Below, in pieces: positions 33,697 through 36,998 of a stretch of 38,503 bases of DNA; positions within the stretch are counted from its first letter, which is position 1; each line of letters opens with the position of its first letter. The translations under genes were made by a program, and so were the position numbers. The DNA comes from Natrinema gari JCM 14663 (GTDB taxonomy: Archaea; Halobacteriota; Halobacteria; Halobacteriales; Natrialbaceae): contig NZ_AOIJ01000044.1 in assembly GCF_000337175.1 (NCBI RefSeq), positions 1-38,503 on the forward strand, read 5' to 3'. The notes below the pieces were generated by a model. The model searched no databases. It saw only the letters and a program-made list of their open reading frames with translations, and had not been told where the DNA came from.

Positions 33697-33894
33697 TCAC
33701 TCATCGTCCATCCCCGAGAGCGCGTCGGGCCACACGCGGCAGCCACAGGGCGTCGCGTAGGCCTCCATCGGCCCGTCGACCCTCGTCGCCACCATCGGCT
33801 CGCCACACCGCGGACAGGGCGGCAACACACCCTCGTCGTCCGCCGCTCGCTCGCCTGTCGGTCCACCACTGCCGCTCGCAGCATCGTTCGTCAT
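33697..33894 (-). CDS. Small CPxCG-type zinc-finger protein
   Basis: The 65-residue acidic protein has the pair CPRCGEPM (27-30 region) and PCGCRVW near residue 50, which could bind one zinc ion, as in many haloarchaeal micro-zinc-finger proteins. The function of this class is mostly unknown, with some acting in stress or biofilm control. No clear TATA element is seen upstream. Confidence 0.65.
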   Translation of the reverse strand: MTNDAASGSGGPTGERAADDEGVLPPCPRCGEPMVATRVDGPMEAYATPCGCRVWPDALSGMDDE

Positions 33895-33980
33895 CGCACC
33901 CCCCGCTCAAGGCCGACGGCCGTCTCGATGCCGACCACTGCAGGCGGTTCTAGTGAGCGATTCCGTTGTCGTGCGGGACG

Positions 33981-33988
33981 TTTATATC
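33981..33988 (+). promoter_or_regulatory. TATA box ahead of the candidate structured RNA
   Basis: TTTATATC in the context ACGTTTATATCCC predicts transcription from about 34011, just before a run of stem-loops and with no open reading frame beginning nearby. Confidence 0.5.
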
Positions 33989-34010
33989 CCGGTAGAATGT
34001 ACGCAATCAT

Positions 34011-34115
34011 TGCTTGCAAATCCCTGGGCGGGATTTGGAAGCTACGTCTCGGGTGTCCTACCACCCGGGGCTTTAATATATACCCCCTGCGCTTTGCGGA
34101 GCGTAGCTTCCGTTC
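34011..34115 (+). ncRNA. Candidate structured non-coding RNA
   Basis: Three stems are visible. CAAATCCC (34017-34024) pairs with GGGATTTG (34030-34037) over a TGGGC loop. GGAAGCTACG (34037-34046) pairs exactly with CGTAGCTTCC (34102-34111), 55 nt apart. Inside that, CGGGTG (34050-34055) pairs with CACCCG (34062-34067). A good TATA box stands about 27 bp before the first stem, and no protein frame fits. It could be a small RNA, the folded end of a vanished IS200/IS605-like element, or a miniature inverted-repeat element. Strand is chosen from the promoter and is not certain. Confidence 0.4.
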
Positions 34116-34206
34116 TGATTTCCAACTGTTAGTTACTTATATCTATTGTTCGTCGGCGGAAGGGATGGGGTCGGCTTCGTCATCCAGTCGTACAGCTATC
34201 ACTGCG

Positions 34207-35348: not shown

Positions 35349-35525
35349 CTCGATCACGTGCCGTCGCGCTCGAGTCGCGCATCGCGAGTATACGTCCCGT
35401 GATAGACGAACATATCGACACCCATCAGCCCCAGCGAAAACCCGCCAATGGCGACGATCACGACGAACAGAAGCCCAGTCCCGCTTCCGACGAACCCCAG
35501 CGGGAGCGAGAGCCCGAACAACACG
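35349..35525. repeat. Duplicated 177-bp segment R1, copy a
   Basis: This aligns base by base with 36601-36777. I count 14 differences in 177 positions, with no gap. It encodes the C-terminal half of a membrane protein on the minus strand in both places. Confidence 0.85.
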
Positions 35526-35638
35526 TTTTCGAGACGACCCCCGAGAACGGCGATCCCAGGCGGTGGGACTGCAAAAAACAACAATACGGGCACCGCTCCG
35601 ACGATTGAGGCGTTCGGATATCGCGCTGTCGCACTCAC
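35354..35638 (-). pseudogene. Internally deleted paralogue of the membrane protein at 36606-36998
   Basis: The C-terminal 56 residues (from LSLPLGFVGSGTGLLFVV) are nearly identical to the protein encoded at 36606-36998. Upstream, the DNA still resembles the intact copy: ERLNRR can be read in another frame near 35615, and FFAVPPPGIAVLGGRLEN in this frame. About 105 bp of the middle are missing and the frame is shifted near the start. From GTG 35638 a 94-residue protein could still be made, so a shortened working protein is not excluded, but a degenerate copy is the simpler reading. Confidence 0.65.
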
Positions 35639-35667
35639 GAACGGACCGCGCAGACCGTCCGCCTCCC

Positions 35668-35961
35668 CTACACGAGTCCGCGTTCTCGCAACGGCTTGCG
35701 AAGCACCCGATAATAAAACGCAACGTACGGCACCAGAATCACCGTCGTGAGCAGTATCAACAGGAGCAGCCGGCCGTATCCCGATTCGATCGCCCCCGCC
35801 CCGTACGCCGGTTCAAGCGGGACGAGCCCAATGGAACTCAAAAACTCGTTCAAAAACAGCCGAAACACGAGCCACAACGACGCGAACAGCGTAATTCCCG
35901 GCACGAACAGCGTAATGAGAAACTCATTGATTATCGTCCCCGGATCGTCTGCATCGTACAT
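35668..35961 (-). CDS. Two-to-three-helix membrane protein
   Basis: The 97-residue protein has hydrophobic segments INEFLITLFVPGITLFASLW (one long helix or two short) and LLLLILLTTVILVPYVAFYY, and ends in a basic tail RVLRKPLRERGLV. It has no known family. The ATG is preceded by a TATA-like GCACAAAATTC about 28 bp upstream, inside repeat R2 copy b. It lies between a deleted and an intact copy of another membrane protein gene, all on the minus strand. Confidence 0.65.
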   Translation of the reverse strand: MYDADDPGTIINEFLITLFVPGITLFASLWLVFRLFLNEFLSSIGLVPLEPAYGAGAIESGYGRLLLLILLTTVILVPYVAFYYRVLRKPLRERGLV

Positions 35962-35966
35962 AGCAG

Positions 35967-36043
35967 TCCGACTCGAGACGATCCGCTTGAATTTTGTGCT
36001 GTGTTCAGCCCGTCGCGACTACCGGGCGGACTGGCTTCACAGA
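35967..36043. repeat. Repeat R2, copy b
   Basis: This is the partner of 34845-34920. It contains the promoter of the gene ending at 35668 (minus strand) and continues beyond it for about 45 bp. Confidence 0.6.
35985..35995 (-). promoter_or_regulatory. TATA-like element for the gene at 35668-35961
   Basis: The minus strand reads CACAAAATTCA, about 28 bp before ATG 35961. Confidence 0.45.
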
Positions 36044-36159
36044 CTCCTGGTATCCGACTCCGTCTCCCGGGCGCTCCGTGAATCCGTGCTCGCTCGAGAG
36101 TACGGTTCAGTTAGGCTCGTCAGCACTCGCAGTACCATCGTTCGGATGCCGGGCCCACA

Positions 36160-36486
36160 CTAACAGGCGGCGCACGTTTCCATCGTCGCCCGGGCACCTC
36201 TCAAGAAGGCAGTAGACGCGAGGAAGACTACCCCTCCGATCCACACTGACCGGTTCACATCATAGAGAAACATGCCAACGAGCCCAGAAAAGAGAGCAAC
36301 CGTCAGAGCCGGACCGATCGTCGTAAACGCGCTTTCGAAAACCAACTGATCGAACCCCGTACTATCGAAGACGATGATTCAGAAGAGGGCGACGATCGGT
36401 GCGCTGATGATGGAGAGACTACACGTGATTCCGATCGCGATTTCTCGACGTTCGATCTGCCGCCGACCGACCCGCGCAATCGGCAT
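36160..36486 (-). pseudogene. Membrane-protein gene interrupted by one in-frame TGA
   Basis: From ATG 36486 the frame reads MPIARVGRRQIERREIAIGI, then a helix (TCSLSIISAPIVALF). It meets TGA at 36379-36381 (codon 36) and continues without further stops as IIVFDSTGFDQLVFESAF, a second helix GPALTVALFSGLVGMFLYDV and a third WIGGVVFLASTAFL, to a TAG at 36160. A CTATATTTGCG element sits 27 bp before the ATG, so the promoter and 5' end are intact. One base change would restore 108 residues. Haloarchaea do not read TGA as an amino acid, so it is a fresh pseudogene or a sequencing error. A TTG at 36345 could start a 61-residue fragment. Confidence 0.7.
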
Positions 36487-36507
36487 ATTCCAACGATTAT
36501 AGGAGAC

Positions 36508-36517
36508 GCAAATATAG
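36508..36517 (-). promoter_or_regulatory. TATA-like element of the TGA-interrupted gene
   Basis: The minus strand reads CTATATTTGC, about 27 bp before ATG 36486. Confidence 0.5.
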
Positions 36518-36600
36518 ATGTCGCTGAATTAGCAAACCGGCAGCTGTTTTGCTGGCCTGCCATCCAGTGACCGAGTTGACCCACCGGTCGGACCGCGCCA

Positions 36601-36777
36601 CTCGATCACGTGCCGTTGCGACCGAGTCGCTCATCGCGGGTATACGTCCCGTGATAGACGAGCATATCGATGCCCATCAGCCCCAGCGAAAGCCCGCCAA
36701 TGGAGACGACCACGACGAACAGAAGCCCAGTCCCGCTTCCGACGAACCCCAGCGGGAGCGAGAGCCCGAGCAAGATG
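36601..36777. repeat. Duplicated 177-bp segment R1, copy b
   Basis: This is the partner of 35349-35525 in direct orientation, 1252 bp away. It encodes the C-terminal part of the intact membrane protein. Confidence 0.85.
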
Positions 36778-36998
36778 TTTCCGAGTCCGTTCCACCGGTA
36801 CCACGCCCACCGGGCAGTCAGTCGGGTGTCGGTTGCCGCGACGATGTCGCAGACACCGGCCACTCCCATCAGCGTCACCTGCACGAGCAACACCGCCGTC
36901 TCGACGAGTCCGCCTCCGAGGACGACGATCGCACCGGCGGCGAGGACCAGAAAGACACCAACAACGGCACTGATCCGACGGTTGAGACGTTCGTTCAT
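36606..36998 (-). CDS. Four-helix membrane protein (intact member of a duplicated pair)
   Basis: The 130-residue protein has helices at SAVVGVFLVLAAGAIVVLGG, LVETAVLLVQVTLMGVAGVC, LGNILLGLSLPLGFVGSGTG and LFVVVVSIGGLSLGLMGIDM, and ends YHGTYTRDERLGRNGT. I do not recognise the family. The gene at 35354-35638 is a shortened copy. The start overlaps (ATGA) the end of a 17-codon open frame at 36995-37048, suggesting translation coupling. Conservation of the C-terminal half in both copies may mean that half matters, or simply recent duplication. Confidence 0.75.
   Translation of the reverse strand: MNERLNRRISAVVGVFLVLAAGAIVVLGGGLVETAVLLVQVTLMGVAGVCDIVAATDTRLTARWAWYRWNGLGNILLGLSLPLGFVGSGTGLLFVVVVSIGGLSLGLMGIDMLVYHGTYTRDERLGRNGT

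Follow-up and report, generated by a model that had tools for sequence, protein, structure and literature searches.

The stretch at 33975-34115 of the window, i.e. of the whole DNA of 38,503 nucleotides from Natrinema gari JCM 14663 analysed here, probably specifies, on its minus strand, a cis-acting leader of an mRNA, which would control translation through the pairing of one of its strands, M, with either of two partners, B or A (Table 1). This reading was drawn from comparison of the sequence with its many relatives. In an earlier note on this DNA, a short structured RNA with its own promoter, or the relic of a mobile element, had been proposed at the same place. Its stem coordinates and bases were all exact on re-checking, and the RNA proved to be real, selected and structured, but the strand, the promoter and the kind of RNA had to be revised, since the element appears to be the 5' leader that precedes a zinc-ribbon gene on the minus strand.

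Table 1. Features of the leader and its downstream genes, in positions of the window
Feature	Position	Strand	Basis
8-bp hairpin	34017-34037		exact in sequence
10-bp long pair	34037-34046 with 34102-34111		exact in sequence
6-bp stem	34050-34067		exact in sequence
String TTTATATC	33981-33988		exact in sequence
Promoter TATA-like box GATATAAG, family consensus CAGTAGATATAAGT	34136..34143	-	conserved spacing; predicted
Structured 5' leader, predicted transcription start ~34111	34011..34112	-	fold z, model R2, covariation
Strand B of P2 (5' strand of closing stem)	34102..34111	-	exact stem; wobbles GU 71, AC 19
Strand M, partner of B (P2) or A (P1)	34037..34046	-	covariation with B and A
Stem P4 with loop, arms ~34067-34071 and 34083-34087	34067..34087	-	covariation, wobbles
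Stem P3 (CGGGTG / CACCCG), near-invariant	34050..34067	-	99.8 % of cells paired
Hairpin P1 between M and start codon, including strand A (34011-34016)	34011..34037	-	covariation
Start codon ATG right behind leader	34008..34010	-	in 92/93 copies
Hairpin P0, A-rich loop, within first codons	33974..33991	-	paired changes in other genera/families
ORF1, 39 codons (MIAYILPGYKRPARQRNRS...), stop overlaps next start (ATGA)	33891..34010	-	
ORF2, 65-aa zinc-ribbon protein (CPRCG...PCGC)	33697..33894	-	

Compared with shuffled sequences, the plus-strand RNA of the stretch folds with a z of -3.5 and the minus-strand RNA (34112 to 34008) with a z of -5.1. The minus-strand fold is the steadier of the two and unites the long pair, the inner stem and the hairpin in a three-way junction, followed by a hairpin adjoining the ATG. 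Among 93 aligned distinct copies, compensatory changes were found in 16 of 23 pairs. The minus-strand model, composed of the closing stem P2, the arms P4 and P3 and the hairpin P1, has such changes in 19 of 29 pairs, with 116 doubly changed cells vs 34 in shuffles, a number reached by none of 500 shuffles. The check proposed in the earlier note, a covariance model combined with a search for compensatory changes, was thus strongly positive. In P4, 95.9 % of cells are paired, three of the four pairs carry a compensatory change, and the wobbles are GU 19 vs AC 2; P3 was found re-paired as GGGGUG/CACCCC in the leader of a PadR-family gene and as CGACGUG/CACGUCG in L270/L271. No ligand pocket was evident in the variable P3 loop.

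When the long pair is read as plus-strand RNA, its mismatches are mainly A-C (77); on the opposite strand these correspond to U-G wobbles. P2 shows an excess of GU over AC (71 vs 19) on the mRNA strand. For P2 and its extension, the minus-strand duplex has the lower energy in 77 copies vs 14, and for P3 and P4 together in 65 copies vs 24. A divergent leader ahead of the PadR gene, scoring E 0.027 with the plus model, reached 1.3e-6 with the minus model. Given the wobbles of P2 and P4, the folding energies, the model scores and the gene order, we assign the element to the minus strand. Conserved secondary structure with compensatory change was found on the mRNA strand, P1 being excepted for its wobble bias.

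Contrary to the earlier statement that no protein frame starts there, a minus-strand frame (34010-33891) begins with the ATG at 34010 and overlaps the start of the zinc-ribbon gene. In Natrinema, the ATG immediately behind the leader is the start of a short Arg-rich frame (MI.YILPGYKRPAR...). In most cases, the stop of this frame overlaps with the beginning of a small zinc-ribbon gene (CPxCG...PCGC). The zinc-ribbon motif is present downstream in approximately 91 of 93 copies; as to the exceptions, L080 seems to have decayed, and the member L054 has lost one Cys. As in a leader, the element keeps a fixed position and orientation immediately ahead of a coding gene. In the N. gari genome, ten ORF2 paralogues were found at E < 1e-5, nine of them behind a leader. 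The tenth (C63:14186-14326, L266) retains the promoter-like box and has lost the leader. At C63:70040-70154 (L269), the leader is present and its zinc-ribbon gene seems to have decayed. An ordinary protein was considered for ORF1 and dropped, its codons being conserved at all three positions; ORF1 is evidently conserved as RNA and not as protein.

The leader is modular, as its divergent copies are followed by genes for a PadR regulator, for a SWIM zinc finger and for other Cys-rich proteins. The divergent N. gari copy at C31:41071-41176 (L082, L268), in which P2, P3 and P4 are all re-paired, lies ahead of a PadR-family regulator (PF03551, E 3e-14). In other families, the ATG opens long real frames at once; the proteins there are a SWIM zinc finger (PF04434), small CxxC proteins, and a CxxC protein with a protein of ~310 aa without assignment behind it. 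The leader precedes these unrelated genes at the same distance. Most, not all, of the proteins downstream of divergent leaders are Cys-rich, and a few copies (L284, L288) precede genes without Cys pairs. According to minimum-energy folds, the same junction is formed in nearly all of the 31 divergent leaders.

Two side observations concern the proteins behind divergent leaders. In L121, L122, L126, L279, L282 and L283, the leader is followed by a CxxC protein of 146-199 aa and then by the protein of ~310 aa (DLYVGL.IDLLAPGDGIVTDRHHASADRYE...), which had no match in Pfam or PADLOC, and whose late G-rich stretch is reminiscent of RAMP/Cas7 folds. Within the first 15 codons behind L279, L282, L287, L288, L121 and L122, unrelated proteins have in common an N-terminal ..Q-E/D-x-x-D (CAAGAA at ~+25), which may reflect RNA-level selection or a common peptide tag.

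Two strands are complementary to M, namely B at the 5' end of the RNA (P2) and A immediately ahead of the AUG (P1), and both M-A and M-B covariation were detected. By inspection, the dual complementarity recurs with differing sequences, namely GGCUUCC, CGACUUCC in the PadR leader and GGGUUCUC in f4/g87. The leader's own M fits better than the M of other leaders in 24 of 31 cases for A and in 26 of 31 for B. That one strand of P2 is able to pair just before the AUG suggests a translational switch. Pairing of M with B at the 5' end would close the junction and leave the bases before the AUG free (ON), and pairing of M with A just before the AUG would extend P1 and cover the start site (OFF). A ligand, an ion or the zinc protein itself may tip the balance between the two states, and translational coupling might relay the signal from ORF1 to ORF2. 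We tentatively raise the possibility that the leader represents a new natural riboswitch class, i.e. a sensor of a metal ion or metabolite, distributed Halobacteriales-wide with ~30 copies per genome ahead of zinc-ribbon genes and with a third element, the A-loop hairpin, in the coding region.

It is somewhat unlikely that the structured leader merely protects or positions the mRNA, affecting its stability or ribosome access with no switching. For nearly all leaders, the closed junction is predicted as the state of lowest energy, and P1 is weak on the mRNA; both points would agree with such a role, but strand A keeps its complementarity to M with paired changes across lineages of differing sequence, which argues against it.

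The wobble bias of P1 is reversed relative to the other stems (AC 78, GU 12 on the mRNA strand). In 88 of ~91 copies and in 23 of the 29 decided divergent leaders, the antisense version of P1 is the one that folds better. On the mRNA, the OFF state is therefore weak, if it exists at all. Either P1 has been selected to be weaker than P2, or the other strand is read by something. A sense leader accompanied by a convergent plus-strand antisense RNA, which would start near 34011 and carry P1 at its 5' end, seems improbable to us. It would explain the better pairing of P1 on the plus strand and the spacing of ~26 nt in Natrinema between TTTATATC and the base of P1 that follows it; however, the bias of P1 persists in lineages without a TATA-like string there, which argues against a simple antisense promoter, and the box is accounted for by the P0 loop and the codons. 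The reversed bias (34011-34037 and homologues) was present in all lineages examined.

The string interpreted in the earlier note as the RNA's own TATA box is the complement of the codons GGA-TAT-AAA. It is found in the loop of P0, a hairpin (CGGGA...UCCCG) ~20 nt after the ATG. In other genera, CTTTTTG or TTTAAG is found at this position, and the hairpin stem is kept through paired changes. Halovivax-type copies have the P0 loop AAAAAG and the stem CGAGAC/GUCUCG, and the stem is GGGCGUA/UACGCCC, GGGACAA/UUGUCCC or GGGCAA/UUGCCC in other lineages and GGGGU/ACCCC ahead of PadR. Codons 7-13 of the first frame are conserved at the third position too, without relaxation. The P0 stem and this codon conservation indicate that the RNA element extends into the coding region, which makes the TATA reading unnecessary. 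A stand-alone small RNA of the plus strand, starting at 34011 behind a TATA box of its own, is very improbable: exact stems and a TATA-like string are present in the correct order, but the string is not kept beyond close relatives (CTTTTTG, CGTTACATG), the wobbles and energies of P2 and P3/P4 point to the minus strand, and one kind of gene follows on that strand.

For the minus-strand leader, a promoter is predicted from the box AGATATAAG. Across 92 aligned copies, this box keeps a fixed place, with ~26 nt between it and the first stem strand of the leader. A distance of ~26 nt is usual for haloarchaeal promoter boxes. The N. gari paralogue at C63:14186, which is without leader, retains the same box in sense orientation, which would fix the direction of transcription. 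The AT box at 34136-34143 was also considered as the promoter of a plus-strand gene; this was dropped, the downstream genes on the plus strand often being convergent or far.

The leader is a member of a dispersed family. The N. gari genome contains approximately ten copies; a DNA search revealed nine related places, and the minus-strand model R2 found 11 places at E < 1e-5. A DNA search of the genus Natrinema yielded matches in 26 of 29 genomes, and a covariance model built on 11 copies matched 81 of 125 genomes of the same family, representing 23 of 29 genera. The largest copy number in one related genome is ~32, and weaker copies occur in five further families of the same order. An exact-pattern scan of named genomes matched Natrinema, Natrialba, Halovivax, Halopiger, Halostagnicola, Natronorubrum and others, which are Natrialbaceae genera. 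Scans of phages and IMG/VR for the Natrinema pattern gave zero matches, and a tRNA/tmRNA search of the stretch found none. An Rfam search at gathering and permissive thresholds gave no genuine family match, the curated cut-offs not being reached.

The N. gari copies are 74-89 % identical to the copy at 33975-34115, whereas single copies in two other species are 97-98 % identical to it; the copies are therefore old and inherited, not recently transposed. Although copies with hairpins are dispersed, a MITE or IS200/IS605-like relic, as suggested in the earlier note, is refuted on the present evidence by copies within one genome that predate the species, by the compensatory changes and by the fixed place ahead of a gene, and the hallmarks of a mobile element, recent near-identical copies in one genome and no tie to one kind of gene, were not found. 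Elsewhere in the window (35354-36998), the minus-strand membrane-protein frames 35354-35638 and 36606-36998 have a nearly identical end (SLGLMG.DM.VYHGTYTRD.RL.R.GT) and, judged by this similarity, appear to be a diverged duplication at the repeat-rich end of the window.

The leader looks like an undescribed gene-control RNA, and no account of it was found in the open literature searched, subscription papers lying outside that search. Hardly any natural regulatory leaders are known from haloarchaea, and the fluoride riboswitch of Thermococcus kodakarensis was the one natural archaeal riboswitch experimentally determined by 2021 (PMC8241225). It is likewise an archaeal leader thought to work on translation, but its fold and genes differ from those of the present leader, which had no Rfam match. 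The S15 leader described from Halobacteria (PMC7247131) is likewise haloarchaeal, and in both cases the structured mRNA leader contains a multistem junction. S15-type leaders precede rpsO and bind S15, whereas the leader reported here precedes zinc-ribbon and regulator genes and has no Rfam model at curated cut-offs.

ORF2 has the same paired Cys motifs and the same size as the haloarchaeal C(P)XCG zinc-finger micro-proteins (PMC11241148, PMC6562870, Brz in PMC2253796); PMC11241148 and PMC6562870 make no mention of a leader, operon, paralog or riboswitch for these proteins. The leader class would give many unassigned zinc micro-proteins a common signal and, with 5-30 copies per genome, a strand with two partners and small deletable genes, would make the control of haloarchaeal translation independent of Shine-Dalgarno sites testable. 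Unlike bacterial translational riboswitches, the present leader is archaeal, is without a Shine-Dalgarno-type site, reaches into the coding region and has no Rfam match. It resembles them in its conserved multi-stem structure, in the predicted alternative pairing that would cover or free the start site, and in the many unrelated genes downstream.
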